Positions 8,168-37,362 of a stretch of 38,447 nucleotides of DNA are shown here, piece after piece. Origin of the DNA: Prochlorococcus sp. AG-412-P08 (lineage in GTDB: Bacteria; Cyanobacteriota; Cyanobacteriia; PCC-6307; Cyanobiaceae); assembly GCA_003214695.1 (NCBI GenBank), contig QCLI01000013.1:1-38447 (forward strand). Direction: 5' to 3'. A program made the translations under genes and the position numbers. The notes beneath the pieces were generated by a model that had not been told where the DNA came from, did not search any database, and saw only the letters and a program-made list of their open reading frames with translations. Position 1 is the first letter of the stretch; each line of letters begins with the position of its first letter.

Positions 8168-8749
8168 TCACGCCGCTGCCTCTCTGTCGAGGATGATTCT
8201 TCGAATGGTGTGATATCCCATCGAGGTCTTATCCCTGATCTGTCTGTAAGAGTCACCTTGATCTCGAAGATCTAGTACCAGCTGTTCTCTTTGCTTACTT
8301 GTCCTAGGTCTGCCTCCTATGGATAGTCCATTCTTTCTTCGGTGTTCTATTGACTCCAAAGTACGTTCCCTAATCAGCTCTCTCTCAACCTCATTCAGAC
8401 CTGTAAGGAGACCAACCAATATTGGTGCCATCTTGCCTAAGGCACGAGTCGAGATCAGACCATCCAGAGTTCTGACGTGTACCTTATTTTCCTGCAAATC
8501 GTGGAGTCTGTTGATTACCTCTACTTGAGTTCTTCCAACCCTTGAGAGTGAGTGACAAACGAGTTCATCTCCCTCTATGAGGCAGTTCAGTGCTGCTTGT
8601 AATTGAGGGCGATCCTTCTCCTTCTTTCTGGTACTAACAACTTCACTGAAGACAAGATCACAACCTGCTTCCTTGAGTGCTGCCACCTGTGACTCCACGT
8701 CTTGGTGAGACGTACTAACTCTTGCGTAGCCAATAGTTCTTGATGACAT
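8168..8749 (-). CDS. Serine recombinase (resolvase/invertase family)
   Basis: 193 residues, the standard length of small serine resolvases/invertases. The catalytic Ser12 lies in GYARVSTSHQD. The conserved region LVCHSLSRVGRTQ corresponds to the usual Leu-x-Arg-x-x-Arg segment, with Ser-Arg-Val-Gly-Arg-Thr in place of Asp-Arg-Leu-Gly-Arg-Ser. The E helix contains GLNEVERELIRERT, and the C-terminal helix-turn-helix is DQGDSYRQIRDKTSMGYHTI. Such enzymes resolve dimers or invert DNA at short paired sites. In island A it accompanies a tyrosine integrase, so it is more likely a resolvase or invertase for the replicating form, or for the repeat-flanked cassette beside it, than the main integrase. 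Confidence 0.92.
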   Translation of the reverse strand: MSSRTIGYARVSTSHQDVESQVAALKEAGCDLVFSEVVSTRKKEKDRPQLQAALNCLIEGDELVCHSLSRVGRTQVEVINRLHDLQENKVHVRTLDGLISTRALGKMAPILVGLLTGLNEVERELIRERTLESIEHRRKNGLSIGGRPRTSKQREQLVLDLRDQGDSYRQIRDKTSMGYHTIRRIILDREAAA

Positions 8750-10758: not shown

Positions 10759-10771
10759 TTAAATTCCGCTT
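10580..10771 (-). pseudogene. Start-less frame directly after the integrase gene
   Basis: A minus-strand open frame runs from inside the integrase 3' end to the TAG at 10580. It reads like real protein (AFAINIAKNIPPDVILGCIY, later LLYTCTTNWITIDPHRK). No ATG is available in frame, only a GTG at 10694-10696 without a ribosome site. It is in the -1 frame relative to the integrase, but no canonical slippery heptamer is visible. Most simply a truncated gene; a short GTG-started protein or a frameshift extension are alternatives. Confidence 0.35.
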
Positions 10772-21806: not shown

Positions 21807-22502
21807 ATGAAAATGAATACTAATTTTCAACATACCGTATTAATCATTGTTGCTCATACTGATGATGAAACTTTAGGCCTAGGCGGGACTATCGCAAGGC
21901 ACATAGAGAATGGAGATCAAGTTTATGCTGTGTCAATGACTGATGGGGTTGGATCAAGAGATGAAATGCCTAAAAACGAAATTAAGATTAGAGCTCAAGC
22001 AGCATATCAAGCTTCAGAAATATTGGGATTTAAATGGATAAGCGCCGGGAACTTTCCAGATAATGCTATGGATTCAGTACCACTATTAAAGATTACGAAA
22101 TTTATTGAAGGAGTAAAGAGTCAAACAGCACCTACGATTATTTATACCCATAGTGCAGCTGACCTAAATATTGACCATAGAATAGTAAGTCAAGCTGTGC
22201 TAACAGCATTTAGACCACAAGATCATGAACTTTGGCATGAAATACGTACATTTGAGGTACCCTCTTCTACTGATTATGGGAATAGATCAGTTACTAATTT
22301 GTTTTATCCGAATTTATTTATAAATATCACCGATTTATGGGACAAGAAAAAAAGTGCATTAAATGCATATGCTAATGAAATGCGAACTGAGCCTCATTCA
22401 AGATCCATCCCTGGGATAGAAAATCTAGCAAAGTATAGAGGTAATCAAGTTGGTCTGAACTATGCTGAGGCTTTTGAAGTCATTAGGAAGATAGAAAGAT
22501 AA
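21807..22502 (+). CDS. PIG-L/LmbE-family N-acetyl-sugar deacetylase
   Basis: 231 residues, standard size. The zinc site motif AHTDDE (residues 16-21) follows strand VLIIV, with GLGGTIARHIENGDQVY after it; the third ligand is in YTHSAADLNIDHR. Enzymes of this family remove acetyl from N-acetyl sugars, for example GlcNAc-linked lipids or sugar nucleotides, giving a free amine. In this cluster that amine could be re-acylated by the acetyltransferase 25263-25721, the NeuD-like enzyme or the carrier-protein acyl operon. Relatives occur in nonulosonic-acid loci. Substrate not deducible. Confidence 0.88.
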   Translation: MKMNTNFQHTVLIIVAHTDDETLGLGGTIARHIENGDQVYAVSMTDGVGSRDEMPKNEIKIRAQAAYQASEILGFKWISAGNFPDNAMDSVPLLKITKFIEGVKSQTAPTIIYTHSAADLNIDHRIVSQAVLTAFRPQDHELWHEIRTFEVPSSTDYGNRSVTNLFYPNLFINITDLWDKKKSALNAYANEMRTEPHSRSIPGIENLAKYRGNQVGLNYAEAFEVIRKIER

Positions 22503-22600
22503 AATACTCTATTTGAACATTTAAAGATTGCTTATATAGTATTTTATTAGAGAACTAGAATAAAGGGAACTAATAGGATTACATTTTAAAGGCAAAATTA

Positions 22601-24346
22601 TTATTTATATACAACATAAGAACCTATACAGAGCTCATCTAATCCAGTTCCATAAAAGCATCTTAAGGCCTGCTCTGGATTCTCCACAATGGGTTCCCCT
22701 TTTACATTGAAAGAAGTGTTTAAAACGATTGGATGAGATTGATATTTCTCTAAATGATCTAATAGGTTCCAATAAAGTGGATTAACTGAAAACGATACAG
22801 ACTGTGGCCTGGCAGTATTGTCAACATGAACACATGATGGAATTAGGCTACTATATTTATTGTCTACGTCGTAAGCAATAATCATATACTCTGGATTAGA
22901 TTTGTAATCACTATTTAAGAAGTATTTTGAAAAGGCTTCTTCTTTTATAGATGGACAAAATGGTCTCCAACTTTCTCTATTCTTTATATTTATATTTACT
23001 TTATCTCTGATTTGTGAAGATATTGGATTAGCTAAAATAGATCTTGAACCCAATGATCTTGCACCTACCTCCATACGACCTTGAAACCATGCAATTAACT
23101 TATTCTCTGAAATTGACTTAGCAGCATATTTTGCAATATCGGAAGATTTCTTATAGTTTACCTTACACTTCTCCAGAATCTTTAAAATTTCATCGTCATC
23201 ATATGATGTACCTTGATAAAGCGATTGCATTCTAGATTGAATGATTTTAGTTTTTGTATACTCTTTTTCTGCAATTAAAGCTGCTCCTAGACAAACACCA
23301 TTATCAGAAGCTGCTGGTTGAAAGTAGCAATTTTTAAATAGATTTCCTCTGAGTATATATCCATTAGCTTTGCAATTCATATGTACTCCCCCTGCAAATA
23401 AGCAAGTGTCTGCATTTGTAACTTCTTTTGTCCATGAAGTCATTGAAATTAATGCTTTCTCGAGAGAAGCTTGAAGTGCAAATGCAATATTTCTATATCT
23501 CTCTTTCATAGGTGATTCCTCTGGCTTCCTTGGCTCCCCAAGAAGCTTTATTAATTTATCTGAAAATCTATTTCCCTTACTTCTTTTAAAATTATACCTA
23601 TATGTTGGATCAGTTTTGTAGAAGCCATTTTCTGGTTCGACAATAGTTAATATTTGAGCAAAAGCCTCCTCTAAAAAATCATCATGCTTACCATAACAAG
23701 ATAGTCCCATTACTCTGCCTTCATCTTCATAAGGCCTATAACCTAAGTACTCAGTAATTGATGCATATAATGCACCTAGGCTATTTGGAAGGATAACTTT
23801 ACTTATTGGTTCATTGATGATGCCATCTTTATATTCAAAAATAGCAGATGAGATAATACCACCCACACCATCATTTGTTATGATTGCTGCATGACTTTGA
23901 TCCTCAAGTATCGAAATTGTTGAAGCTGCATGACATAAATGATGTGGCAAGAAATATATTTTTGGAATCTTACTAAAATTTTCTTTATTGAATAGAAGTT
24001 CTATATTTCTTTTTATTAATATAGGGTTATATGCCAAATTAAGCTTGTCCTGAGATAGCTTATTTAATTCGTCACTTTCAGATGGGAATGATAAGTTAGT
24101 TGAAAGTAGATTCTCTGTAGCCTCTTCCTTGTAATTAACACAGTCCCACCCATAACCAATTGCTTTAATATCATTGATATTGGCCTTCAAGTAATCCAGA
24201 CCTTTTTGTATTGACAAGTAAGGAAATGAGTGCGGAGATGTCTTGATTCTGGTAAAACGTTCTTCCTCTGCCCAAAAAAGGATTTCTCCATTTTCAATGA
24301 AACAAGCAGAAGAATTTGGTCCTGGTCCAAATATTCCCAAATACAT
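22601..24346 (-). CDS. NodU/CmcH/TobZ-type O-carbamoyltransferase
   Basis: 581 residues, the full length of the family. The N-terminal Kae1-like domain has HHLCHAASTI with the metal-binding His pair, AIITNDGVGG and DEGRVMGLSCYG. The second half has CLFAGGVHMNCKANGYI and AASDNGVCLGAAL, and the C-terminal domain RMEVGARSLGSRSILANP with RESWRPFCPS and PIVLNTSFNVKGEPIV, all diagnostic. The enzyme makes carbamoyl-adenylate from carbamoyl phosphate and ATP and transfers the carbamoyl to a hydroxyl, here presumably on a surface sugar. Minus strand, alone; a 0.9-kb decayed region lies upstream. Confidence 0.93.
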   Translation of the reverse strand: MYLGIFGPGPNSSACFIENGEILFWAEEERFTRIKTSPHSFPYLSIQKGLDYLKANINDIKAIGYGWDCVNYKEEATENLLSTNLSFPSESDELNKLSQDKLNLAYNPILIKRNIELLFNKENFSKIPKIYFLPHHLCHAASTISILEDQSHAAIITNDGVGGIISSAIFEYKDGIINEPISKVILPNSLGALYASITEYLGYRPYEDEGRVMGLSCYGKHDDFLEEAFAQILTIVEPENGFYKTDPTYRYNFKRSKGNRFSDKLIKLLGEPRKPEESPMKERYRNIAFALQASLEKALISMTSWTKEVTNADTCLFAGGVHMNCKANGYILRGNLFKNCYFQPAASDNGVCLGAALIAEKEYTKTKIIQSRMQSLYQGTSYDDDEILKILEKCKVNYKKSSDIAKYAAKSISENKLIAWFQGRMEVGARSLGSRSILANPISSQIRDKVNINIKNRESWRPFCPSIKEEAFSKYFLNSDYKSNPEYMIIAYDVDNKYSSLIPSCVHVDNTARPQSVSFSVNPLYWNLLDHLEKYQSHPIVLNTSFNVKGEPIVENPEQALRCFYGTGLDELCIGSYVVYK

Positions 24347-25011: not shown

Positions 25012-25262
25012 AAAAAGCTAAGGTTGTTAAATACAGTTAATGATTAACTACTTGGAGAATAGTTTAATATCATAGATATATTAGGCTATCTGGGATACTA
25101 TAGATTCTAAAATATAGACATAGCTTATATTTTCAAGCTAAGCATTATACAAATAATACATTATGAATAAGGGTAACAATTAAATAAAAGGTATTGAAGT
25201 TTATAAATATTATATATCGTTATTTATCACATCGCGTTGTCAAAGATTGGTCTAAGATATTC

Positions 25263-25721
25263 TTAATCAATTCGGTAGGATATTTGGACAGGCTTGCATC
25301 CTAATAACTTGACAACATCCTGAAAGTCTCTATCTTCATTAGGTACATTAATATAAAACTCTTGAGGTATTGCTGACTTTAAAGCAGGGCAGGGTTTAAA
25401 TTTAAACTTAATTATTTTAATAATAAAAGGTATTGCTTCAGAATAATATTTCGAATCAAGATATATTCCTATTGAGTTGTTATACTGAATATAAAAAGTA
25501 CCTATATAGGAATCAAGTAGAGAGATTAAGAACCAATACCTGTAAGGATGCGAAGCTACAAATCGTTTATGAGATAAATATGAAGGCTGTTCTTTATGAC
25601 TTATATTATATTTCCGACTAGCCAAGAGGGAAAACAAAACATCTATATGCTCTGATTTAGATTGAACCTCATGAATTTTGTAAGACATAGGAGATCGTAA
25701 ATTAAATAAAACATAACACAT
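25263..25721 (-). CDS. GNAT-like acetyltransferase (short, divergent)
   Basis: 152 residues as the longest frame; the ATG at 25688 (MSYKIHEVQSKSEHIDVLFS) is the more likely start, giving 141 residues. The layout HPYRYWFLI, SYIGTFYIQYNNSIGIYL, KYYSEAIPFIIKIIKFK, FYINVPNEDRDFQDVVKLLG and a final strand with SYR matches a small GNAT fold as found in nonulosonic-acid clusters, where it N-acetylates an amino-sugar intermediate. The acetyl-CoA loop is weak, so catalytic function is inferred. The gene is divergent from the NeuD-like gene at 25903. Confidence 0.6.
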   Translation of the reverse strand: MCYVLFNLRSPMSYKIHEVQSKSEHIDVLFSLLASRKYNISHKEQPSYLSHKRFVASHPYRYWFLISLLDSYIGTFYIQYNNSIGIYLDSKYYSEAIPFIIKIIKFKFKPCPALKSAIPQEFYINVPNEDRDFQDVVKLLGCKPVQISYRID

Positions 25722-25902
25722 ATAATAAAATTATACTCCAAGAGAAAAGCATACAATAGATATATAATAGTTTAAGGACTAATATATGAAAAATGATTTA
25801 ATCTCAAAGTATTCATTAAATACTCAAATAAGAAAATATGTTTACATTCAGTTAAATTCTAATTTTTGAATTAGAATACAATCAAGGTAGTCCATGTAAA
25901 CT

Positions 25903-26598
25903 ATGCAGAATAAAGTATTTGTAACTGGCTATGCAGGTCCCATTATAGAATTATTGTTATCTAAAGTAGGTAAAGGTGATTTTTATATATCAGTAATGGA
26001 AGACGATAAAAAGAAAAGAGAACTATTAAAAAATACCTATTCAACTTGTATTTCCTCCTTAAGCTTTGATGAAGGAGTTGGCCTAATTTCAAACTCAGAT
26101 TTTACTGCAGAAATTTATATAGGAGTTAGCTCTACTCCTAAGAGTAGACTTATTGCAAAAGAGCTATTTGAAACTAAAAATATAACATTCCCAAAATTAA
26201 TTCAACCTAGTGCGAAAATATCAATATCAAGTAAATGTTCAAAGGGAATTTATATAGGCGACTTTGTCACTATAGAATCAAATGCAACTTTACATGATTT
26301 TTCTTTTATTCATAGCCATAGTCACGTTGGTCATGACTCTTACATAGGCAAGTTTTGCGTCTTAGGAGGTTCAGTAACGATTAATGGAAACTGTATAGTT
26401 GAGGACTACTGCTTTTTAGGATCTTCTGTTACTGTTATAAACGACAGGAAGATTGGGAAAGGAAGTGTTATTGCAGCCGGAACTTGCGTAACTAGGGACA
26501 TCCCGCCCTTTAGCTATGCATGTGGAAACCCGTCCAAAATCATCAGCCCTGTTCAAGTCCTAGGTCAAAAATATATTCTCCCTGAAGAGCTGATCTGA
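25903..26598 (+). CDS. NeuD-like left-handed beta-helix sugar acyltransferase
   Basis: 231 residues. Residues 1-95 form a Rossmann-like sugar-nucleotide binding domain (KVFVTGYAGPIIELLLSKVG at the start). Residues 100-205 are hexapeptide repeats of a left-handed beta helix (GIYIGDFVTIESNATLHDFS, HSHSHVGHDSYIGKFCVLGG, RKIGKGSVIAAGTCVTRDIP). The His-rich HSHSHVGHD holds the catalytic His of the NeuD/PglD group. These trimeric enzymes N- or O-acetylate nonulosonic acids or UDP-4-amino sugars using acetyl-CoA. The gene sits just ahead of the acyl operon and could share its acceptor sugar. Confidence 0.82.
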   Translation: MQNKVFVTGYAGPIIELLLSKVGKGDFYISVMEDDKKKRELLKNTYSTCISSLSFDEGVGLISNSDFTAEIYIGVSSTPKSRLIAKELFETKNITFPKLIQPSAKISISSKCSKGIYIGDFVTIESNATLHDFSFIHSHSHVGHDSYIGKFCVLGGSVTINGNCIVEDYCFLGSSVTVINDRKIGKGSVIAAGTCVTRDIPPFSYACGNPSKIISPVQVLGQKYILPEELI

Positions 26599-26754
26599 CT
26601 ATGATCAAAAATAATAACTCAGATTAAGTTTGTCCTACAAATGGTTTAAAAAATAATTCATTTGAATTTTAAGCTAAATCAATTTCTAGATTCAATAAAT
26701 TCTAGATAATTAAGATTTTAATCAATTAAGTTCTAGGTTTCACCTAGTAATAGC

Positions 26755-26799
26755 CTGAAATAAGACTTAATTTACAATATTAATTAAGACTTGTTTCAG
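26755..26799. repeat. Long inverted repeat between NeuD-like gene and acyl operon
   Basis: 18-base arms (26755-26772 and 26782-26799), 16 perfect pairs plus a possible G-U, loop of 9. The left arm begins CTGAAATAAG and the right arm ends TTGTTTCAG. It ends 157 bases after the NeuD-like stop and lies 89 bases before the next start; it may be a terminator or processing stem, or a leader structure of the operon. Confidence 0.65.
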
Positions 26800-26887
26800 A
26801 GATCTAGAAAGGCTTGCTTCTCTCTCTTCTATTGCATCCATTTAATTGTAAAATTAAATAAAGAATATCCAACGGTAATAAGCTGTT

Positions 26888-27493
26888 ATGAATGAAGGAA
26901 AATCAATTTACTTACCTTTAGGAAATCATTTCCTGACAAATGATGAAGTTGGATTAATTGATGAAAGGTTAAAAGAGTTTCCACTAGAAGATATAACTAT
27001 AGGAGATGCAGGAGAGATAAATAATTGTCAGGTAGGTAGATTGATGGAAGATCAACCAGCAAAACTTCCTAAAATACTAAATGATTCATTATCTAAACCT
27101 ATTTTGAGTCTATTCCAAACTGCCAAGGCTAAGAAGTTTTTCAAACAATACCTAGATTCTGAATCACCTCAAATCATAAGAAGAAGTCAGTTCAATTTAC
27201 TAGGTACAGGCTCCTACGTTGGCAGGCATTTAGATACAGACAGCAACCCAGATTACCAAATAGCTGCTGTTCTTCAGTTAGGTAGTGACTTCTCTGGTGG
27301 TGAATTTATTGTCTACCCCTCAAAAGAAGCAACAAAAGAAGATGCTCAAATTATTAAACCAAAATTTGGATCTTTAACTATCTCTTTTTGTTCCAAGGAA
27401 CACGAAGTCAGTACGGTGAAATCAGGAATAAGAACTTCATTTGTTAATTTCGTTTCAAACTATACAGGTATTAATAAAAGAACAATGAGCTAA
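26888..27493 (+). CDS. 2OG-Fe(II) oxygenase, first gene of the acyl operon
   Basis: 201 residues. The triad is visible: His114 and Asp116 in SYVGRHLDTDSN, His172 in CSKEHEVSTV, and Arg182 (SGIRTSFVNF) for 2-oxoglutarate. DFSGGEFIVYP is the usual strand before the second His. It resembles prolyl-hydroxylase-like P4Hc/2OG-FeII_Oxy_3 proteins. It begins an operon with 8-bp, 0-bp and two overlapping junctions, ending with an adenylating enzyme and a carrier protein, so its substrate may be a free or carrier-bound acid, or the sugar. Hydroxylation is the likely reaction; the substrate is inferred only from neighbours. Confidence 0.82.
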   Translation: MNEGKSIYLPLGNHFLTNDEVGLIDERLKEFPLEDITIGDAGEINNCQVGRLMEDQPAKLPKILNDSLSKPILSLFQTAKAKKFFKQYLDSESPQIIRRSQFNLLGTGSYVGRHLDTDSNPDYQIAAVLQLGSDFSGGEFIVYPSKEATKEDAQIIKPKFGSLTISFCSKEHEVSTVKSGIRTSFVNFVSNYTGINKRTMS

Positions 27494-27500
27494 AAATACC

Positions 27501-28586
27501 TTGTCTAGAATTAATTCATATATAAGTCGTTCTATTTTAAAGCAGTCTGCTTCAGAATCAGTTGGATATTCTTCATGGATGAGAACGTATCTATCTGCAA
27601 AAGAATATCATTTTATCAAGGACAATTATATGCATGCCATGCCTATAGAAGACTTTAAGAAAAAAATAGATTCAATATTAAATAATTTAAATATAGAATC
27701 TGATGTAAACCTTGTTGAATATTTAATCAGAGTTAATACAAGGCTTGAAATTATCCTAAAGATAATTAGATCAGGTTTTTACGGTAATTTCCAGACAAAG
27801 AAGGAACATAGAATTAATCTTCTGCTGCAGATTTTCTCTTATAGGATACTGAAAAATTCAGATCTAAATATAATTCAACCTGAATTATTCACATCTAACA
27901 ATAATAAAGACAACGACCTTCATATAATTGGACCTGTATGTCCTGATTATTCTTACGTTAATACAAAGGATGGGCGATACAGATATACATTTGAGTCAAT
28001 AGGTAATGGAATTGGATTAGTTGCTAAAAAAGCAATAATCAATTTTTCAATATTGGATAGATTGTCAAAAGATTTGGTTGCGAATGGATTAAATTTAAAA
28101 TTCAAAATACTTATTGGTGACTTTGAAGCTAATGAAAAAAATCTAGAAGCATTAAATGAATCAAAATCTAGTTTTCTTAAAAAGGTCAGTTTGAGTCGTG
28201 ACACAATAGAACAGACAACAGGTATTAAGACTGACTTATTTACATCTTTAAGCCTTGGATTAGAAGGTTGGCAAACCCAAATTGAACAAATAAAACTAAT
28301 GTATAATTTAAAAGAATTTATCGACCTTGAAAGACTATTTCCTGATATTAAACATGAAAAAAGACTTATTTCTAGGCTACCATTATATAAAAAGTGGTTT
28401 GGTAATTCTGCTAATTTTAAGCAAATATTTTTAAACCAGACCTTAGAGTATATTCTAATGGGAAGCCTTATTTCAAATTCGTATCAAAACAGAGCTTGTA
28501 TTCTCGCCTCAGATCATAAAGCCATGAGAGAGTATTACTCATTGATATCTAAAATCGTGTTAATATCATCTTCTTTCAAGTATTAA
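27501..28586 (+). CDS. Unrecognised protein, second gene of the acyl operon
   Basis: 361 residues if the TTG at 27501 is the start, or 335 from the ATG at 27579; neither has a clear ribosome site. No signal peptide. An N-terminal helical region (to about 130) is followed by an alpha/beta-looking domain with HIIGPVCPDYSYVNTKDGRY (residues 141-160) and FKILIGDFEANEKN (201-214), where the CPDY and GDFE motifs could line an active site. Later SLGLEGWQTQIEQ and SNSYQNRACILASDHKAMRE. I do not recognise the family. It is packed between the 2OG oxygenase and the flavin monooxygenase (zero gap to the latter), so it probably acts in the same pathway, for example as a transferase or ligase. Confidence 0.75.
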   Translation: MSRINSYISRSILKQSASESVGYSSWMRTYLSAKEYHFIKDNYMHAMPIEDFKKKIDSILNNLNIESDVNLVEYLIRVNTRLEIILKIIRSGFYGNFQTKKEHRINLLLQIFSYRILKNSDLNIIQPELFTSNNNKDNDLHIIGPVCPDYSYVNTKDGRYRYTFESIGNGIGLVAKKAIINFSILDRLSKDLVANGLNLKFKILIGDFEANEKNLEALNESKSSFLKKVSLSRDTIEQTTGIKTDLFTSLSLGLEGWQTQIEQIKLMYNLKEFIDLERLFPDIKHEKRLISRLPLYKKWFGNSANFKQIFLNQTLEYILMGSLISNSYQNRACILASDHKAMREYYSLISKIVLISSSFKY

Positions 28587-29537
28587 ATGAAGAAAATAGG
28601 CTTATTCTTGATACCTATAAAAATAGATCCCTCAACATCTACCTACAATGACTATATAGACTTCCTTGTACAAGCTGAAGATCATGGCTATAGCCACATT
28701 TATATCGGGGAACATTTAACTGACTCTAAAGAAGACATACAATCATCCCTAATATTTGCGGCTGCTTTGCTAGCGAGGACTAAAAAAATAACTCTATGCC
28801 TATGTGTCTTACCTTTACCCCACTACGAGATCAAACTTTTGGTAAAGCAACTTGAAGATTTATATCGACTATCTAAAGGAAGAATTGAAATTGGTTTCAG
28901 CCAGGGTGCCTTAAAGTCTGATGCGGAATATTTAGGCTTTGATCATACGAAAAGAGGGGAACACTTCAGTAGGAAGTTAGATGAACTAATGAATACAATA
29001 AAAGAATCAAAGTATTTAAGTGAGCTTCCAAAAGAAAGCTTTTTCTCTACGTTACTATCCCCTCTTCCGGTTAAGTCTTCTATACTTTTTGATCAAGGTT
29101 ATTCCGCAATTACATCAAATTTTGTAAATGAGGAATATTGGGATGCACATATTAGTTGCTTATCAAAAAATATATCTGATAGCAATAATTCTAATTGGCA
29201 TATTTGTATTAATTTGATACCAAAGGAATCAATCTCCAAAAAATCAGAAAATATAATTAAAGAGAGTCTCTATTACATTTATGAGAAACTAAATAACTGC
29301 AAATTAAATATTATGTTACCTAATCATAGTATAAATATAACCAATAAATCTAAATTACAAGCTTATCTGTATACAGAAATGACTTATAATAGCCTACCGA
29401 AGAGATATTTTGAGCTAGAGAATAAATATAAAACTATAATAGGACACCCAATAATTAATCTTTTTGACTGTATAAGTGATTCATGCTATCGTGATTTTAT
29501 ATGGAGTTTACCAAAAGATGAAAGACTTGGAAGATGA
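28587..29537 (+). CDS. Luciferase-like (LLM-class) flavin-dependent monooxygenase
   Basis: 316 residues. The TIM-barrel start is KKIGLFLIPIKIDPSTST, with EDHGYSHIYIGEHLTD, ARTKKITLCLCVLPLPHYEI and the diagnostic GRIEIGFSQGALKSDAEYLG, then KRGEHFSRKLDEL. These match the bacterial-luciferase-like family, which uses reduced FMN and oxygen to oxidise aldehydes, ketones or carrier-bound acyl or aminoacyl groups. In several natural-product pathways such enzymes act on substrates tethered to carrier proteins. It follows the previous stop directly, and its last 20 bases overlap the carrier protein gene. It is a little shorter than typical family members. Confidence 0.85.
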   Translation: MKKIGLFLIPIKIDPSTSTYNDYIDFLVQAEDHGYSHIYIGEHLTDSKEDIQSSLIFAAALLARTKKITLCLCVLPLPHYEIKLLVKQLEDLYRLSKGRIEIGFSQGALKSDAEYLGFDHTKRGEHFSRKLDELMNTIKESKYLSELPKESFFSTLLSPLPVKSSILFDQGYSAITSNFVNEEYWDAHISCLSKNISDSNNSNWHICINLIPKESISKKSENIIKESLYYIYEKLNNCKLNIMLPNHSINITNKSKLQAYLYTEMTYNSLPKRYFELENKYKTIIGHPIINLFDCISDSCYRDFIWSLPKDERLGR

Positions 29538-29775
29538 AGTATTTGATTTTATAAAAAAAACTCTTAAGAAAGCAGACTATACAATAAATCTTGAGGAATT
29601 CAACAAAAATACGGATCTAGCTTCTATTGGGGTTGAGTCAATAGTAATAGTTACATTGATAGCTGATATAGAAGAGAAATTTAAAATAAGTATTACTTTG
29701 TCAAATTTAGAGAAATATGACTACATTGTTTCCGTAAAATCAATTTGTGCGAGTATTAACGATGAGAAGTCTTAA
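29518..29775 (+). CDS. Acyl/peptidyl carrier protein
   Basis: 85 residues from the ATG at 29518 (MKDLEDEVFDFIKKTL), chosen because the fold starts there; the longer frame from 29476 would only add residues overlapping the monooxygenase. Ser41 in LASIGVESIVIVTLIADIEE is the expected phosphopantetheine site (Glu-Ser in place of Asp-Ser). Helices I-IV match the ACP pattern. Discrete carrier proteins beside an adenylating enzyme load and hold an acid for tailoring. It overlaps the monooxygenase upstream and the adenylation gene downstream by 14 bases, which argues for a matched set. Confidence 0.85.
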   Translation: MKDLEDEVFDFIKKTLKKADYTINLEEFNKNTDLASIGVESIVIVTLIADIEEKFKISITLSNLEKYDYIVSVKSICASINDEKS

Positions 29776-31261
29776 AGAAGATATACATAAAAGGCTTCTA
29801 AACAACAATCAATCTATTGTCTTTTCAACATTCTCAGGCAAAGGTTACACATCAGTTCAAATAGAGTCGTATTATTTTAATATAATTACTCATGTCGATC
29901 CCATATCCTCAACTATTATATTTCTAGCTGATTCAAGTCTAGAATCACATATTCTTTCGCTGTTTCTTATATTAAGTGAGTATGATGTAATCTTAATTAG
30001 TAACTTCTCTGATCAAATTCTTAGTATATATAGCGATTCAACAATAATTACTCTAAGTTCAAAGACGTATAATGATATAAAAGAGTTAAATATAAATAAC
30101 AAAGTTATACAAGCATCCAGGCTAGATGGATTTGTAAAATGGAGTCACCCTAGCTTTAACCTTAAAGATCTCTCAAATACATTTTATAAGAGCAGTAAGG
30201 TTGGGAAGTCAATATTTCAAAGTTCAGGTAGTACAGGCAATCCAAAATTAATTCCCTTAACATATAATCAAATAAATAGTTGCTATAATAATGTTTACAA
30301 TGGTTTTTTAAATTCATTAGATTTTAAGAATATAGTAAGTTTACATGATACAAGTTTTGTCATTATTCTACCATTTCTATTTTGTTTAGCAGCCAAAGGG
30401 GACTCAAAGTTATTGGCAAGTGAATACCAGTCTTTGTCAAACCCTATATTAAACTTTTCCTCAAATATAAATTCAATTGAGAATTTTATAATTATTTCGG
30501 TACCATCTATATTCCGCTTATTATTTAAATTACTTAAGGATTCATTTGTAAATTTATTGACAGAATCTAACATTATTACTTGTGGAGAACCCCTAGACAA
30601 AAATCTTGCTCTTAAAATTAACGCTGCAAGGCCCTTGTCCTTTTTGAATCTATATGGTTCCACAGAAGTATCTCCATGGATAATATATTTAGATGTTATT
30701 AATTTTATAAATACATTTGAAAACATAGAGAATATTCCTTCTGTGCTACCAGCCGGAAAGTCATTACCTTCAGTTCAATTACAACTAAGTTTATCCAATG
30801 AATTATTAGTTAATGCATCTTCAGTATTTGATGGGTATGAAAATCTTGAGAACTCCAAAGTATTTACTACTATAGAATCATGTAAATTCTACAGAACAGG
30901 TGATCAATTTGAAAGAAGAGATGAACTTTATTTCTGTAAGGGCCGAATCAATAGTTCTTTAAAAGTAGCCGGCGTATTTGTTAACCCAATACTGCTAGAA
31001 ATAGAAATTAAAAGTAAAACAAATCTAGAGAATCTTCTTATTATCCCCCATGAAATTAAAGCACAGTTAATTATTCTTTTCTTCAATCAAAGTCCTTTAA
31101 GCTTGACTAAAGAAATTTCAACTCTAATAAAAAATACTATTAATAATAATACTTCAAAGAATATTCCTCTTCAGATAATATTAGAAAAAGATGAAATAAT
31201 TTATTTGAAAAGTGGTAAAATCAATAGACAATATTATAAAGAAAAATATTTACAATGCTAA
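29762..31261 (+). CDS. AMP-forming acyl/aminoacyl adenylating enzyme
   Basis: 499 residues from the ATG at 29762 (a GTG at 29747 would add five). ANL-superfamily motifs: A3 FQSSGSTGNPKLIPLT, A5 NLYGSTEVSPW, A7 KFYRTGDQFE, A8 KGRINSSLKVAGVFVNP, and the A10 lysine in LKSGKINRQYY. It activates a carboxylic or amino acid with ATP and loads it on the carrier protein encoded just upstream. Specificity cannot be read: no aminoacyl-type Asp is obvious at the substrate pocket, but alignment is needed. Very AT-rich (AT-driven Ile/Asn/Lys/Ser use) like the rest of the operon. A strong hairpin follows. Confidence 0.88.
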   Translation: MRSLKEDIHKRLLNNNQSIVFSTFSGKGYTSVQIESYYFNIITHVDPISSTIIFLADSSLESHILSLFLILSEYDVILISNFSDQILSIYSDSTIITLSSKTYNDIKELNINNKVIQASRLDGFVKWSHPSFNLKDLSNTFYKSSKVGKSIFQSSGSTGNPKLIPLTYNQINSCYNNVYNGFLNSLDFKNIVSLHDTSFVIILPFLFCLAAKGDSKLLASEYQSLSNPILNFSSNINSIENFIIISVPSIFRLLFKLLKDSFVNLLTESNIITCGEPLDKNLALKINAARPLSFLNLYGSTEVSPWIIYLDVINFINTFENIENIPSVLPAGKSLPSVQLQLSLSNELLVNASSVFDGYENLENSKVFTTIESCKFYRTGDQFERRDELYFCKGRINSSLKVAGVFVNPILLEIEIKSKTNLENLLIIPHEIKAQLIILFFNQSPLSLTKEISTLIKNTINNNTSKNIPLQIILEKDEIIYLKSGKINRQYYKEKYLQC

Positions 31262-31282
31262 GCATTAATTCCCTATTATTAA

Positions 31283-31319
31283 AATATAATTTACTTAAGT
31301 TTAACAAGTAAATTATATT
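31283..31319. terminator. Perfect 14-bp inverted repeat after the acyl operon
   Basis: Arms AATATAATTTACTT (31283-31296) and AAGTAAATTATATT (31306-31319), loop of 9, starting 22 bases after the adenylating enzyme stop. Probably the operon's transcript end, though no T-run follows and the stem is AT-rich. Confidence 0.6.
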
Positions 31320-31508
31320 CCATCAGAATTCCATGATCAAACCCTATTCCATATATTTATAAATATATTTTTTAGCTCTATTTTCATTTTCATACATTCC
31401 TGCAGTTATTAATAAAATATTATCTCTAGCAATTGTCTGAACATTTATATTAATAGAACAACAAAAGAACTTTAGATTGTGTTAATCTAAAAAAAAATAG
31501 GGTCCTAA

Positions 31509-32255
31509 GTGAGAATCATTGCGACAATAGAAGCAAGAATGGGTTCTACTCGCCTCCCTGGGAAAGTACTATTAGAAGCTGGTGGTCAACCATTATTAGA
31601 ACATTTAGTTCAAAGACTTAAACTTGTACCTTCTATAGATGAAGTAATTATAGCTACTACTACAAATCAGAAAGATGAGCAAATAGTAGACTTTGCAGAG
31701 AAAAGATCAATTAAATTTTATAGAGGGAGTGAAGAGAATGTCATGTCTAGAGTTTTAGAGGCCGCTAAAACTTCAAATGCTGATGTAGTTGTTGAGATAA
31801 CAGGTGATTGTCCCTTGATTGACCCAGATATCGTAGAACAAACTATTAGGTTGTTCATACAAAATAAAGTTGACTATGCTTCTAATGCATTTTATCGTTG
31901 TTACCCTGGAGGCATGGATACTGAGGTAATTAGTAGAAGAGCGCTTGAAAAGTCATTCTCAATGACTAATGACCCTTATCATTTAGAGCATGTCTCAACA
32001 CACATTGTTGATAATCCAGATTTATTTTCACATGTATATTTAATAGCCCCTCCTTCATTAACCTACCCTGAATTTGAATTCATTGTTGACGAGGAAGATG
32101 ATTATAAATTGGTAAAAGAAGTAATAGAAATATTGGGATCCAAAAATAAGTTTTTTAGCTGCATAGATATGATTAACTTACTAAAGAATAATCATGAAAT
32201 TGCCTTTAAGAATTCAAGAGTAAATAGAAATAACACAAGACCTACATGTCTATGA
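31509..32255 (+). CDS. spsF: SpsF-like nucleotidyltransferase (CMP-sugar synthetase family)
   Basis: 248 residues from a GTG start (no ATG fits; the frame opens with RIIATIEARMGSTRLPGKVL). The N-terminal motif EARMGSTRLPGK is diagnostic of the SpsF/acylneuraminate cytidylyltransferase-like group. GDCPLIDPDIVEQ and NAFYRCYPGGMDTEVISRRA are conserved substrate-binding parts. SpsF is found in polysaccharide and nonulosonic-acid loci and probably activates a sugar with CTP. It heads a coupled three-gene unit with 32246-32539 and the aminotransferase. Together with the PseF-like gene at 33880 the cluster has two different cytidylyltransferases. Confidence 0.88.
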   Translation: MRIIATIEARMGSTRLPGKVLLEAGGQPLLEHLVQRLKLVPSIDEVIIATTTNQKDEQIVDFAEKRSIKFYRGSEENVMSRVLEAAKTSNADVVVEITGDCPLIDPDIVEQTIRLFIQNKVDYASNAFYRCYPGGMDTEVISRRALEKSFSMTNDPYHLEHVSTHIVDNPDLFSHVYLIAPPSLTYPEFEFIVDEEDDYKLVKEVIEILGSKNKFFSCIDMINLLKNNHEIAFKNSRVNRNNTRPTCL

Positions 32256-32539
32256 TATTCAAACTACTGATCATCAGATTAATAGAAATAGGGTTTGTGT
32301 ATAAGTTTCTAAACAAAGCCAAGAATTTTATTCAATCTCACAGTAACTCAAATGATTTCACTGCGTACTTAGAGCTGCTAACAAAGAAAAAAAGAATACA
32401 TAGCCCTACTAATAATTTCCCATCCATAGTAGCCATTAATATTTCAAATATACTAAATGGGGATTCTTCAGGACTATGTACAATTAAAGCTGCTCAGGTT
32501 ACACTTAATTCGTTAATTAAAGTCAAGGAGAACTTATGA
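32246..32539 (+). CDS. Small coupled protein between spsF and aminotransferase genes
   Basis: 97 residues, or 95 from the ATG at 32252, which overlaps the spsF stop as ATGA and may be the true start. Basic and helical, with a hydrophobic N-terminus (IFKLLIIRLIEIGFVYKFL), then TAYLELLTKKKRIHSPTNNF and SSGLCTIKAAQVTLNSLIKV. The stop overlaps the aminotransferase start, also as ATGA. Two coupled junctions make it a real gene. Family not recognised; possibly a small partner of the sugar-modifying enzymes. Confidence 0.6.
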   Translation: MSMIFKLLIIRLIEIGFVYKFLNKAKNFIQSHSNSNDFTAYLELLTKKKRIHSPTNNFPSIVAINISNILNGDSSGLCTIKAAQVTLNSLIKVKENL

Positions 32540-33831
32540 AGTCTAATATAAATGATCATCAACTAGCATTATTTGGTGGTGATAAGGAAGTTAAATGTAC
32601 TTTTGAAAAATACAATCCTCATTCACAGGAAGAAATTGATGCAGCAACTGAAGTTGCAAAAACTGGTGTATTATCTAATTATCTTGCTGGATGGAGTGAA
32701 AACTTTTATGGAGGTAAAAAGGTAAAGGAATTTGAAAGAGATTGTAGAGATTTCTTCAAGGTTAAACATGCAATTACTTTCAATTCTTGGACTTCGGGTT
32801 TAGTAGCAGCAGTGGGTGCTATTGGAATAGAGCCTGGTGATGAAATAATAGTAACCCCTTGGACCATGGCAGCTACTGCCACTGCAATTCTACATTGGAA
32901 TGCAATACCTGTTTTTGCAGATATTGAAGAGGATATGTTCTGTTTAGATCCAAAATCAGTAGAAAAGAATATAACTAAATATACTAAAGCAATACTTTCA
33001 GTAGATATTTTTGGGCAATCTGCAAACATGTCTAAATTAAAAGAAATTGCAGCAAATAACAATTTAAAGATAATATCTGATACTGCTCAGGCTCCTGCAG
33101 CTCTTTATAAAGGTTCATACGCAGGAACAATTGCAGATATAGGTGGTTTTAGCCTTAATTGCCACAAGCATATTCATACAGGAGAAGGAGGCATTGCAGT
33201 TACAAATAATGATGATCTAGCAGAACGTCTGTGCCTTATCAGGAACCATGCTGAAGTGGTAGCTTCAGAAATGGGAAGAGTAGATATCAGTAATTTGATT
33301 GGCCATAACTTTAGGCTAGGAGAAATAGAATGTGCAATTGGAATTGAACAATTAAAGAAATTAAAAGAACTAGTAAGGGTTAGACAAGAGCTTGCAGAGC
33401 AACTAAATGATGGATTAAAAGGGTTGAAAGGCCTAATTACTCCAGTTGTAAGAAATAATTGCACTCATGTGTATTACGCATATCCCCTTAGACTTGATTT
33501 TGGAATTATAAATTCAAATCGTGAAACGATTATAAAAGCACTCAGAGCCGAAGGAGTTCCTGGCTTAGGTTCCGGGTATATCAATCTTCATCTTTTGCCT
33601 ATGTATCAGAAAAAGATAGCTTACGGTAACAGCGGTTTTCCCTGGAATTCTGATATATGTAAACGAAATATAAACTATCAGAAAGGAATATGTCCTATTG
33701 CAGAAAAACTACAGGACTCAGATTATATGTGTATAGAAATCTGTGCCTATGATTTTAATGAGAAAAATATATCAATGATTATAAATGCTTTTCATAAAGT
33801 TTGGGGAAATATAGAACAATTAAGGCTATAA
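32536..33831 (+). CDS. DegT/DnrJ/EryC1/StrS-family sugar aminotransferase
   Basis: 431 residues. The PLP lysine is Lys211 in FSLNCHKHIHTGEGGIAVTN. Other hallmarks are FNSWTSGLVAAVGAIGIEPG near residues 82-101, DIFGQSANM, ISDTAQAPAA (Asp for the pyridine ring) and GHNFRLGEIECAIG. The enzyme transfers an amino group from glutamate to a 4-keto (or 3-keto) nucleotide sugar, a step before N-acylation. Here it fits making the amine that the acetyltransferase, NeuD-like enzyme or carrier-protein acyl group would decorate. Coupled to the preceding small gene by ATGA. Confidence 0.93.
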   Translation: MKSNINDHQLALFGGDKEVKCTFEKYNPHSQEEIDAATEVAKTGVLSNYLAGWSENFYGGKKVKEFERDCRDFFKVKHAITFNSWTSGLVAAVGAIGIEPGDEIIVTPWTMAATATAILHWNAIPVFADIEEDMFCLDPKSVEKNITKYTKAILSVDIFGQSANMSKLKEIAANNNLKIISDTAQAPAALYKGSYAGTIADIGGFSLNCHKHIHTGEGGIAVTNNDDLAERLCLIRNHAEVVASEMGRVDISNLIGHNFRLGEIECAIGIEQLKKLKELVRVRQELAEQLNDGLKGLKGLITPVVRNNCTHVYYAYPLRLDFGIINSNRETIIKALRAEGVPGLGSGYINLHLLPMYQKKIAYGNSGFPWNSDICKRNINYQKGICPIAEKLQDSDYMCIEICAYDFNEKNISMIINAFHKVWGNIEQLRL

Positions 33832-33879
33832 GAGATAGTACTTCGTTTTCTTTTACTGCTAATAAAATCTATTTTGATT

Positions 33880-34596
33880 TTAAGTCTCTTTTTTATTTCT
33901 TACTTTTAGATTATATATTGCTTCGGCAATAGACCAATCCTCATTGTCATCTATGTCTATAGAAGAACTTTTATTAAGTTCAAACCCAATAAAATTTTGG
34001 TTAGAACCGGCACCACTTGAGCTAAGAATATGAACTGGTGAAAAAATAATGAAATTTCCTGTATCAAAATATTTTTTTTCTAGATCCTGAGATCTAATAG
34101 CAAATCTTCCAGGATAAAGAGGCTTTAATTCCTGATTTTCACTCTTTTCATAAGCCCATTCTATGGGAACTGAAAATTCAGAGACAGACATGACAGGTTT
34201 AACAGCATTTTGCCTTTCAAAAAGCTTACAAGCACTTATTAAATCTTTTGCTTCAACCAAAGGCGAGCATGCTGTTATTAACCAGATTTGGTCGAATTCC
34301 TCCCCTAACTCTTTATATTGTTCTAAGACATATTTCATAACAGGCATTAATGGGGAGTGGTCTTCCGCCAAAAAGGAAGGGCGATCAAATTCTGGCGGGA
34401 AACCTTTCCTTGAAACAAACTCCTTGATTTTCTCACAATCAGTAGATATATGTATTTTATTAAATAATTTGCTTTTTACTGCAAAGTCAATTGAGTAAGA
34501 AATTATAGGTTTACCACAAAAATTCTTTATATTTTTATTTAAGATCCTCTTGGAACCACCACGAGCAGGAATAATAGCGAGCCTTTTTAACATCAA
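33880..34596 (-). CDS. pseF: PseF/NeuA-like acylneuraminate cytidylyltransferase
   Basis: 238 residues. RLAIIPARGGSKRILNKNIK and GKPIISYSIDFAVKSKLF are the CTP-binding N-terminus. IHISTDCEKIKEF, WLITACSPLV and FAIRSQDLEKKYFDTGNFII follow; the RSQDLE..Y.D(A/T)G block is typical of the pseudaminic-acid type (PseF), more than NeuA or LegF. It activates the nonulosonic acid as a CMP sugar. The ATG used follows ordinary length; an extra Met-Met at the N-terminus makes the start ambiguous by one codon. Convergent with the aminotransferase. Synthase (NeuB/PseI) and dehydratase (PseB) genes are not in this window. Confidence 0.9.
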   Translation of the reverse strand: MMLKRLAIIPARGGSKRILNKNIKNFCGKPIISYSIDFAVKSKLFNKIHISTDCEKIKEFVSRKGFPPEFDRPSFLAEDHSPLMPVMKYVLEQYKELGEEFDQIWLITACSPLVEAKDLISACKLFERQNAVKPVMSVSEFSVPIEWAYEKSENQELKPLYPGRFAIRSQDLEKKYFDTGNFIIFSPVHILSSSGAGSNQNFIGFELNKSSSIDIDDNEDWSIAEAIYNLKVRNKKET

Positions 34597-35353: not shown

Positions 35354-36487
35354 TCAGTGAATAGAAGTAAATAAATTATTTTGGTTGAGAAACTTCTTTA
35401 AATGATTCCATTGTAGTGAGTATTTTCCGATAGAGGAACAAAGTTCATCAGTAAACATAGGCTTAATAACTCCAAAGCTTCGATCTTGCAAATCAAATAA
35501 GTCTGAGTCATGAAGCATTGGAAGAAAAATATCTTGCCAAAAATAATCAATCTTTTTACAATTAGAAATCATAGGAATTAATTTAAAATTTTCCAGCTCC
35601 TTAAGAACAGCCGATCTATTTTCCAAAGTATTTGTTAAGTCATGCCTTAAGGCTACAACTAAAATATATTTACTGTTATGAGAATTTTGGATAGGAAGAA
35701 ATTGAGTTAACTCATGAACATATTTAATTATCGAATTTCTTGGAAATAACGCTTGAGAGTAATTTCGCAACTGATCTTGCTCAACAAGGTTAGATTCACT
35801 TTCTAAATAAAAGTGAATAGATGGTCTCTTATGCTTTTTTAGATTCAGATATACTTGCTTATGATCTATCGTGAATCCTGAAGGAGGTATGAATCCATGC
35901 GATAAAAATAATTGCTTAGTGTTATATTCTCTACCTCTAACAACTACTGTTGCGTTGCCAGGAAGAACTGAGATATGTTCAATTGATGATTTAGACATAA
36001 GATTTAAATTAGTTTCTGAACAAAGTTTTGACAACCTATTGGTGAATTCTAATGCTCCTTTCTTAGGATATTTTGTCTGATGGTGACTAGGATTCTTGGT
36101 TAAAGATATAAATTTAGATAAGTTTTGGTTAACAGCAGGTTGAGAATCTAAATTAGAAATAATTCTTGTGATGGGATTATTGTAAGGCAGTAATATATTT
36201 CTACCTAGAATATTCCTTGCAAAAAACTTATTCTGACAATTAGAAAGCTCTATTTTTAGAAAATTATTTATAAAATTATAACCATCATCATTAGGGAGTA
36301 AGTAATGTACTGCATTTTCAACATTAGGTATTCCAAATAAATCAATACAATGCCAGGCACCCAAAATAAATGGGGATTTATCTATAACAAGTACATTTTC
36401 TTTTGCTATAGTAGAATTTATAGCATCTAAAATATGAACAATGCCACTACCTATATATAGTTTATCAAGTTGATTCTCAAAGTTCAT
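35354..36487 (-). CDS. Flavin- or NAD-binding oxidoreductase-like protein
   Basis: 377 residues from the ATG at 36485-36487, chosen because it overlaps the previous stop as ATGA; the longer frame from 36514 would overlap 31 bases. The N-terminus has a dinucleotide-binding fold: LYIGSGIVHILDAI, then ENVLVIDKSPFILGAW with the acidic residue at the end of the second strand. This resembles FAD-dependent amine oxidoreductases and UDP-galactopyranose-mutase-like flavoproteins, with a Gly-Ser-Gly variant of the usual motif. The remainder is not recognised. Paired with a methyltransferase, it may modify a sugar or lipid. Class assignment is tentative. Confidence 0.6.
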   Translation of the reverse strand: MNFENQLDKLYIGSGIVHILDAINSTIAKENVLVIDKSPFILGAWHCIDLFGIPNVENAVHYLLPNDDGYNFINNFLKIELSNCQNKFFARNILGRNILLPYNNPITRIISNLDSQPAVNQNLSKFISLTKNPSHHQTKYPKKGALEFTNRLSKLCSETNLNLMSKSSIEHISVLPGNATVVVRGREYNTKQLFLSHGFIPPSGFTIDHKQVYLNLKKHKRPSIHFYLESESNLVEQDQLRNYSQALFPRNSIIKYVHELTQFLPIQNSHNSKYILVVALRHDLTNTLENRSAVLKELENFKLIPMISNCKKIDYFWQDIFLPMLHDSDLFDLQDRSFGVIKPMFTDELCSSIGKYSLQWNHLKKFLNQNNLFTSIH

Positions 36488-37362
36488 TTTGATGCCTGCC
36501 ACTGAATCAACCAACCAGGTAATAGACCAAATCCAGCAACATCCTTGCTAATAGTTAAATCTATTAATCCGCTGGAGGCTGCATCTTTAAAAGCTTTTCC
36601 TAAGTTACAGGTGTAATTATTCTGCCTTGCATATTTCAAGGCTAACTTAGCATAAAGTGGGTCTAAAAGTTTATAAAGCATATCTGTACATGGTTCAAAA
36701 TGAACACCAGCCTTATAACCACTTGTAACTAATTTTTCTACATGACTTTTATCAAATTTGTTGAGGTAATGAAGTCCAAATGAACTAATTATAATACTTG
36801 GTGATTCTACTTTTATATATGAAATATCATCTAACTCAAAATTTAATTTAATTGTTTTTATATCTAAATGATACTTTTTAGAAAAATGTCGACAAATAGA
36901 TAATCCATTATCGGAAAGGTCAATAGCATATAAATTTAGGCTAGAAGGTGATAAGTTCATTCCTAAATTTATAATCTTTGAACCATATCCAGAACCATAT
37001 TCGTATATATTATTGTAAGATCGATATTTTAGTAGGTTATTAACTGATGATAGGATTTTTTGATTTATATATGACCTGAGCCATTTATTTTGACCAAGGA
37101 AATGCTTATTATTATAAAATATATATTCATCATTTTCTCCATCCAATAAATCTTCAAATTCGGAGAATTCTATATTCGGTTCCTCCAAAATCTCTCTTAA
37201 TAAGGGGCCATATACATCATGGTCAAATTCTCTCAGTAATGAAGCAGCTGATTTAATATGTAAAATTGAATCATCCTTCATTATTAATTTATCTAAATCG
37301 TATGCAATATCAAGTCCAGATGCCAGATTGATCTCTTTTCCTAAAAACTCTAAGAAATCCAC
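36484..37362 (-). CDS. Class I SAM-dependent methyltransferase
   Basis: 292 residues. Motif I is NIYEYGSGYGSKIINLG, followed by LNLYAIDLSDNGLSICRHF with the acidic ribose ligand, and SIIISSFGLHYL in the motif IV region. The N-terminal 95 residues are an acidic, helical extension of unknown role. The stop overlaps the start of the oxidoreductase-like gene (ATGA), so the two form a coupled pair. The start is 45 bases from the divergent ABC transporter gene, so both promoters must be compact or shared. Confidence 0.8.
   Translation of the reverse strand: MDFLEFLGKEINLASGLDIAYDLDKLIMKDDSILHIKSAASLLREFDHDVYGPLLREILEEPNIEFSEFEDLLDGENDEYIFYNNKHFLGQNKWLRSYINQKILSSVNNLLKYRSYNNIYEYGSGYGSKIINLGMNLSPSSLNLYAIDLSDNGLSICRHFSKKYHLDIKTIKLNFELDDISYIKVESPSIIISSFGLHYLNKFDKSHVEKLVTSGYKAGVHFEPCTDMLYKLLDPLYAKLALKYARQNNYTCNLGKAFKDAASSGLIDLTISKDVAGFGLLPGWLIQWQASK

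Follow-up and report, generated by a model that had tools for sequence, protein, structure and literature searches.

Why should an adenylating enzyme, a small carrier protein and two oxygenases be packed together among surface-sugar genes, and what might the fifth protein among them do? The question is raised by five tightly packed plus-strand open reading frames (ORFs) in a surface-sugar island of Prochlorococcus sp. AG-412-P08, within a 38,447-nucleotide stretch of contig QCLI01000013.1 (the window). An original prediction, made from the sequence alone, took them for a loading and tailoring line whose oxidised acyl or aminoacyl product ends on an amino sugar of the cell surface. That view is partly supported: carrier-based amino-acid tailoring is likely and a glycan destination plausible, but conservation of the five genes was not found. 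The whole reading, in which a surface-glycan island has acquired an operon for tailoring carrier-tethered amino acids, is given a probability of about 0.42. The value of the finding lies in a recurring pair within the set, a 2-oxoglutarate (2OG)-Fe(II) oxygenase and a 361-residue protein that resembles cyclodipeptide synthases (CDPSs) and carries a Cys motif. The five genes and two of their motifs are as follows.

26888..27493, + strand: 2OG-Fe(II) oxygenase (PF13640), with HxD114-116, H172 and a conserved Arg intact
27501..28586, + strand: 361-residue protein, probably of HUP/Rossmann fold and CDPS/isonitrile synthase-like, a candidate aminoacyl transferase (from relatives, two low-confidence models, Foldseek and conserved strand ends)
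27933..27953, + strand: PVCPDYS motif of that protein, residues 145-151, with invariant Cys147 (three of three sequences; model strand 139-146 precedes it)
28587..29537, + strand: luciferase-like flavin monooxygenase (LLM; PF00296)
29518..29775, + strand: acyl or aminoacyl carrier protein, 85 residues (PF00550)
29638..29640, + strand: carrier Ser41, predicted phosphopantetheine site (GVES motif)
29762..31261, + strand: stand-alone adenylating enzyme (ANL), DltA-like, 499 residues (AMP-binding; DltA 7vhv; motifs placed)

Ligase, carrier and oxygenases

The ORF coordinates confirm the tight packing, with gaps of 7 and 0 bp followed by overlaps of 20 and 14 bp. The gene for the 361-residue protein starts at a TTG codon. 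For the carrier, the ATG at 29518 fits the earlier 85-residue numbering (the mechanical ORF begins at 29476), and the 499 residues of the ligase are counted from the ATG at 29762 (mechanical ORF from a GTG at 29747). Spacers of 289 bp (26599-26887) and 247 bp (31262-31508) lie upstream of the first gene and downstream of the last. No terminator-like sites were found in 25200-34000 (shuffles gave a mean of 3.0), promoter-like sites did not rise above shuffle level (52 versus 47.2, sd 6.5), and the G+C content of the five genes (0.28-0.34) is similar to that of the window (0.333). Pfam assigns four of the five genes, all above cut-off, which upholds the labels given to the oxygenase, the LLM, the carrier and the adenylating enzyme. 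A Pfam scan of the 31 window proteins found no condensation or polyketide enzyme, as had been predicted for this loading line; the condensation domain of a nonribosomal peptide synthetase (NRPS) line has no match among them.

The adenylating enzyme appears to be of amino-acid type. It matches AMP-binding at 49.7 bits (cut-off 29.9), its NCBIfam list is headed by AA-adenylation and DltA models (every one below cut-off), and its closest PDB match is DltA 7vhv (E 7.8e-12). The ANL core motifs are present, including the A10 lysine: SSGSTGNPK (154), NLYGSTE (296), YRTGD (377), GRI (394) and SGKINR (484), which we take to be A3, A5, A7, A8 and A10. The amino-acid-binding Asp (GrsA position 235) has a counterpart, aligned by eye, in Asp196 of HDTSFV (195-200). 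On GrsA numbering, the specificity positions, also placed by eye, are presumably D196, T197, V200, S246, I272, C274, L297, P305, W306 and K486; Cys274 would thus sit at the pocket position filled by Cys in DltA, and the Leu/Trp pair resembles glycine codes. Asp196 argues for an alpha-amino acid substrate, and the Asp, the Leu/Trp pair and the Cys together hint at a small one.

The carrier matches PP-binding at 34.6 bits (cut-off 20.8), and the Ser named in the original prediction is present as residue 41 of the 85-residue form. The genome to which the window belongs (as contig C13) comprises 1.55 Mb in 52 contigs and is 82.8% complete; no second carrier was found in it. The ligase occurs in only one of the 14 genomes sampled from the genus (0.9-1.8 Mb), namely its own; three of these 14 are at least 90% complete.

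Both oxygenases can be placed in families. The first belongs to 2OG-FeII_Oxy_3 (40.4 bits, cut-off 27), its metal triad H114-x-D116 and H172 and its distal Arg are conserved in six of six sequences in an alignment with five relatives, and its closest solved relative is 6n1f (E 5.8e-35). No relative was found in phages. Among 72,556 plasmid records, four hold a relative at E<=1e-4, and all four neighbourhoods were inspected. On a Massilia plasmid it lies in an NRPS cluster; in a Streptomyces record (unannotated, read through Pfam) it adjoins a C-A-PCP-TE NRPS (condensation, adenylation, peptidyl carrier and thioesterase domains), a gene of the major facilitator superfamily (MFS) and a DDAH-like gene; in a Piscirickettsia record it is near an aminotransferase and a peptide MFS transporter; and in a Rhizobium record, as annotated, it is near a PGM1-related peptide ligase, a fatty acid desaturase and a TylF-type O-methyltransferase. 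From their neighbour genes, we read all four settings as amino-acid or peptide metabolism. The LLM matches Bac_luciferase at 56.2 bits (cut-off 27.9) over residues 14-126 only. At E<=1e-5, one of 131 family genomes (members seen, 1.0-3.9 Mb) holds a match, its own, and a search of viral contigs with few peptide patterns gave no relative. Elsewhere in the window, a PKHD-type 2OG oxygenase (1569-2234, - strand) is a distant relative of the cluster's oxygenase (26% over 108 residues).

The recurring pair and the predicted fold of its second member

The second gene had been left as unknown. This stands insofar as the window protein matches no Pfam or NCBIfam family at E<=1 and has no credible PDB sequence match; at E<=10, the three family members gave only two unrelated chance matches in Pfam (E about 0.1), both to the Massilia protein. 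It is nevertheless probably the key enzyme of the set and is CDPS-like in low-confidence models. The protein was found in one of 99 relatives and one of 386 phylum genomes, each time its own; in the class of genome G452 it occurs in one of 385 genomes (G452 itself), and in the phylum of G452 in two of 398, the second, G1102, being presumably the Massilia plasmid strain, with the same coordinates. The relatives, class and phylum samples overlap, and the genome-collection scan used two peptide patterns only; the family may be wider. One plasmid record, of Massilia forsythiae, holds a relative (26.5% identity, E 3e-17), as does one genome contig, from a metagenome-assembled genome (MAG) labelled Rhodobacter and hence taken as alphaproteobacterial. 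None was found in phages, nor on viral contigs with few peptide patterns. In the alignment, identity is about 60% between the Massilia and MAG proteins and about 29% between the window and Massilia proteins, and yet PVCPDYS, including Cys147, is invariant in all three.

In each of these three distant genomes the protein is paired with a 2OG oxygenase, those of the other two being 41-43% identical to the window's (43% for the Massilia copy). Between the two partners, Massilia and the MAG encode a protein (70% identical over 400 residues to each other) that is taken, by eye from His-rich motifs, for a membrane desaturase; Pfam does not recognise the Massilia copy. Massilia alone has an additional 275-residue protein there, without similarity to the one protein compared beside the Streptomyces oxygenase or the one beside the Piscirickettsia oxygenase. 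Directly after its 361-residue homologue, Massilia encodes an adenylation and carrier (A-PCP) protein, with NRPS genes also present. In the alignment the Asp is missing from this A domain, whose substrate is thus probably a different kind of acid. The contig of the MAG starts within the oxygenase frame, so that upstream genes lie outside it; at that end (2-799), a stretch resembling by eye part of a pyridoxal phosphate decarboxylase barrel precedes the oxygenase in the same frame, either a fusion or an assembly artefact.

Outside the Prochlorococcus genome, the pair was not found together with the LLM, the carrier or the ligase, and the five-gene order was found in no other genome examined. 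Co-occurrence elsewhere is thus confined to the pair, which in Massilia adjoins an NRPS line and not a glycan island. If only two of five genes recur together, then the ligase and carrier could belong to a unit of their own, Dlt-like or for acyl supply, and the five genes would not form one pathway. DltA models and structures do stand at or near the top for the ligase (NCBIfam, PDB). However, the genes overlap on one strand, Massilia too has adenylation and carrier domains directly after the homologue, and no DltB-type (MBOAT) match was found by Pfam among the 31 window proteins. Such a split is unlikely, and the five genes are treated below as one tailoring operon.

For the fold of the 361-residue protein, two AlphaFold models were built from two-row alignments, with the window protein first in one and the MAG protein first in the other; they use the same two sequences and hence are non-independent. 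Both show a mostly helical N-terminal part, then strand-helix-strand-helix-strand, a helical insert and strand-helix-strand, an order that agrees with a HUP fold with a helical cap after strand 3, at a mean predicted local distance difference test score (pLDDT) of 49. In Foldseek searches of the PDB, both models have the same top match, the CDPS 6y4b (E 4.4e-3, probability 0.99, and E 5.2e-3, probability 1.00), and the next matches in both lists include more CDPSs, PIsnA/PvcA and class-I tRNA synthetases.

A second line of evidence is the position of the invariant residues, which fill 16 of the 25 positions that directly follow the ends of the five predicted strands, where the mean over shifts is 26%. 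With five positions per strand, only the unshifted of 225 circular registers reaches this count; with four (12 of 20) three registers do, and with six (16 of 29) two do, the unshifted included in each case. The test has three sequences and takes its strands from the model. Placed by hand on the models, Cys147 would follow strand 1, where CDPSs have their catalytic Ser, E316 would belong to the helix that leads into strand 4, and H339 would come after that strand; the Glu-to-His distance, counted by hand, is 23 residues in the window, 22 in Massilia and 21 in the CDPS of locus L024.

Sequence comparison does not carry the relationship further. Neither PF16715 nor the NCBIfam CDPS models gave a significant match to the 361-residue protein, and all three family members have PVCPDYS after strand 1 instead of GxSxxN; in the CDPS comparison set, GxSP is found in seven of seven, followed by Asn in six and Thr in one. 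A PF16715 scan of 249 genomes matched nothing, controls included, and is uninformative. In profile-profile comparisons (hhalign), the three-member family matched neither CDPSs (P 0.12; 7 of the 22 records found) nor PvcA (P 0.43; 11 sequences: L012 and ten taken from the 15 plasmid records detected) significantly, nor the PvcA-like protein of locus L013. For reference, PvcA recovered that distant relative at a probability of 94, and PvcA against CDPS was faint (P 0.013). A merged MAFFT alignment left the motifs out of register. These results argue against a close sequence relationship to either family. The models and the strand-end pattern, set against the non-significant profiles, lead us to propose that the protein works like a CDPS, not that it is one; a HUP/Rossmann fold is suggested by the low-confidence models. 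As a side observation, the L013 protein (1192-2037, - strand) is a divergent PvcA-like protein of 281 residues (PF05141 22 bits, cut-off 26.4) in which the motif Lys aligns and the preceding FP is missing; it has no plasmid relatives at E<=1e-3.

The same fold searches raise another candidate. If the protein were a divergent isonitrile (isocyanide) synthase, then its pairing with a 2OG oxygenase would recall that of PvcA/IsnA with PvcB/IsnB, and in both Foldseek lists PIsnA and PvcA indeed come second among the fold groups (window first: 9dhm_B, E 2.8e-2, rank 12, and 3e59, E 0.12, rank 47; MAG first: 9dh4, E 2.2e-2, rank 3, and 3e59, E 4.9e-2, rank 11). In contrast, PF05141 gave no match in a scan at E<=10 (HMMER filters drop most matches above 0.1), the hhalign result with PvcA was the non-significant one above, the lysine of the PvcA FP-x-K motif (L012, profile consensus) has by eye no counterpart in PVCPDYS, and the oxygenase here is 2OG-FeII_Oxy_3 where PvcB is TauD-like. 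A search of open-access literature for an isonitrile and carrier combination gave nothing. An isonitrile synthase is therefore unlikely, and a CDPS-like enzyme remains the preferred assignment.

Glycan setting and proposed pathway

The genes on either side of the five, and two further downstream, are of glycan type.

25903..26598, + strand: NeuD/PglB/VioB-like hexapeptide acyltransferase, candidate glycan N-acyltransferase (TIGR03570 114.7, cut-off 160.8; Hexapep)
31509..32255, + strand: CTP_transf_3 nucleotidyltransferase, glycan part (PF02348, 98.1 bits)
32536..33831, + strand: PseC-like sugar aminotransferase (PF01041, 289.3 bits; PseC model 224.8, cut-off 423.5)
33880..34596, - strand: PseF-like CMP-nonulosonate synthetase (TIGR03584 184.8, cut-off 205.7)

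The NeuD-like and sugar aminotransferase flanks of the original prediction are thus recovered as family resemblances, although each is below the cut-off of its specific model. The 152-residue protein at 25263-25721 that it called GNAT-like matches nothing in Pfam or NCBIfam at E<=1, which leaves that label unverified. Contig C24 of the same genome encodes a PseI/NeuB synthase (PF03102 301.6 bits; PseI 488.5 bits, cut-off 340.25), a WbuX protein that exceeds its cut-off, a PseB-like dehydratase that does not, and a Wzz protein. Judged by these matches, the genome has a pseudaminic-type pathway, and a nonulosonic setting is sound for the genome, which makes a glycan destination plausible; the carrier product is tied to that pathway by position alone. 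An N-acyl on a nonulosonic acid, as originally proposed, would have a pathway to join, and this end point is predicted from the neighbourhood. N-acetylalanyl, N-acetylglycyl and hydroxybutyryl-alanyl amino sugars are described in bacterial glycans, with aminoacylated ones in marine bacteria (PMC3210612).

The main rival to the glycan reading is a small diffusible product. In this case, the five genes would make an oxidised amino acid or dipeptide (a metallophore, signal or allelochemical), and their position would be incidental, because islands collect acquired genes. For instance, the Massilia pair lies within an NRPS cluster with A-PCP, C-A-PCP-TE, MFS and HlyD genes, and the Streptomyces oxygenase adjoins an NRPS and an MFS gene. 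Additionally, the LLM was not found in the 130 other family genomes nor the ligase in the 13 other genus genomes, as expected for an acquired cassette, with the completeness of the genus sample noted above. However, the five genes include no thioesterase or exporter, the flanking genes on both sides are of glycan type, and 6 kb separate the set from the ABC transporter at the end of the window. A diffusible product is possible but, on balance, rather doubtful.

Under the preferred reading, that of a glycan-directed tailoring operon, the pathway could proceed as follows. The DltA-like ligase would adenylate a small amino acid and load it on the Ser41-phosphopantetheine of the carrier, as its motifs suggest. 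The LLM flavoprotein and the 2OG-Fe(II) oxygenase would hydroxylate or otherwise oxidise the carrier-bound aminoacyl group, a step that fits their families and context and is proposed by likeness to BtrO, cited as hydroxylating a side chain in butirosin biosynthesis (PMC2922099). If the weak models are right, the CDPS-like HUP enzyme would then take the aminoacyl group onto Cys147 and join it to an amine, of either a second aminoacyl unit or a sugar. From the neighbourhood, the product may end as an N-acyl on a pseudaminic-type or related amino sugar. A diazeniumdiolate product was considered and dropped, as nothing in the families pointed there.

Published work on CDPSs bears on this scheme in both directions. 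CDPSs are described as HUP domains in which the active-site motif follows strand 1, strand 3 is followed by a polar residue, and a Glu lies between strands 3 and 4; some neighbours encode 2OG oxygenases and acyl-CoA ligases, and it was suggested that such CDPSs might use aminoacyl-CoA and not tRNA (PMC2922099). A Ser-to-Cys mutant (S33C) of one CDPS was active and gave more product from a non-tRNA ester (2.4 versus 0.8 uM per uM enzyme) (PMC8084100). In broad searches of open-access literature, none of the matches listed, judged by title and opening of the abstract, describes this gene set, which is weak evidence of absence.

Several observations weigh against the scheme. At pLDDT 49 both models are poor, neither Foldseek list has a match at E<=0.001, 6y4b superposes badly (TM scores 0.33/0.42 and 0.32/0.46, root-mean-square deviations 8.3 and 7.0), and the second list includes unrelated phosphatases from rank 19 on; the non-significant profiles and the out-of-register alignment belong here too. 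The complete five-gene set was found, among the genomes examined, in its own genome only. In that genome, at its 82.8% completeness, no phosphopantetheinyl transferase (PF01648) was matched. No acyl-carrier:sugar transferase was identified, and none of the steps joins carrier to sugar. With Leu-tRNA, the CDPS of the mutant study made 78 uM product per uM, far above the ester, and it did not bind a puromycin-type mimic (PMC8084100).

A bolder form of the proposal would make the 361-residue family a new CDPS-like, class-I-synthetase-derived branch of peptide-bond formation, in which Ser is replaced by Cys, the donor is a carrier thioester and not aminoacyl-tRNA, a 2OG oxygenase is dedicated to it, and oxidised aminoacyl or dipeptidyl groups are written onto surface sugars; we consider this improbable as a whole. 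If true, it would mean that tRNA-dependent peptide-synthesis enzymes can be moved to carrier-protein substrates, and it would open chemically unusual surface sugars of marine cyanobacteria to genetic study; in these organisms, variation of the cell surface is expected to be important in encounters with phages and grazers. Even if only the pair holds, it is an uncharacterised oxygenase-partner module seen in glycan-island and NRPS settings.

Other features of the island are recorded for completeness. A PIG-L type deacetylase adjoins a carbamoyltransferase (21807-24346), possible further sugar decorations. The ABC transporter membrane domain (37408-38447, + strand) runs off the contig end and is perhaps, at a guess, a PglK-type glycan flippase. 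Before it lies an overlapping minus-strand pair: a 386-residue protein without Pfam or NCBIfam match (35354-36514) and a methyltransferase-like protein of 292 residues (36484-37362); another CmoA-like protein is at the start of contig C24 (2-754). A tRNA-Ser(CGA) gene (5319-5406), followed by a resolvase-domain gene (8168-8749, - strand) and a tyrosine-recombinase-like gene (10759-12087, - strand; 25.9 bits, just below the Pfam cut-off of 27.1), may mark a mobile-element insertion site. Since a search of the window for an exact repeat of 14 or more bases from the 3' end of the tRNA found none, a tycheposon-like element between the tRNA-Ser and recombinase genes is not claimed. A 1095-residue protein (12777-16064, - strand) combines Mrr-type nuclease, ResIII helicase and helicase-associated domains and weakly resembles the restriction enzyme of dnd phosphorothioation (52 of 600 bits); located at the border of the island, it may serve in restriction or defence.

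Comparison with known systems

Compared with D-alanylation by DltA/DltC, the ligase is an ANL enzyme closest to DltA in sequence, would work with a small carrier and presumably shares the pocket Cys; in contrast, no membrane acyltransferase was found in the window, and two oxygenases and the 361-residue protein are added. PvcA/IsnA isonitrile synthases are the second fold match and likewise pair a Rossmann protein with a 2OG oxygenase, but the protein here lacks a PF05141 match and the conserved Lys, and the oxygenase family differs.

In fold, both low-confidence models match CDPSs (AlbC family, PF16715) best. Five strands with a helical insert after strand 3 are shared, as are, placed by hand, a candidate active-site residue after strand 1, a Glu before strand 4 and a His after it. 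Unlike CDPSs, the 361-residue protein has no Pfam match, Cys in PVCPDYS in place of Ser in GxSP, no Tyr four residues before the Glu, an extra N-terminal helical region, and a carrier and ligase nearby.

The butirosin side-chain pathway is similar in chemistry, with an amino acid on a small carrier, oxidation by an LLM and transfer to an amino-sugar amine. In that pathway, the ligase BtrJ is of ATP-grasp type and BtrH carries out the transfer. The butirosin pathway is not known to include a 2OG oxygenase or a CDPS-like protein.

The remaining parallel is a predicted pathway, set out in a note added in proof, in which a SerRS-like amino acid:carrier protein ligase, with ORF Atu2574, would attach an amino acid to a sugar of the cell surface through the sugar's amine (PMC2922099). 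Its loader is SerRS-like and its redox enzyme of Rossmann type, whereas an ANL ligase, an LLM and a 2OG oxygenase are found here. The two nevertheless bring together, in one neighbourhood, a predicted carrier-bound amino acid, a presumed monooxygenase as redox enzyme, an uncharacterised ORF and genes of liposaccharide type (PMC2922099).

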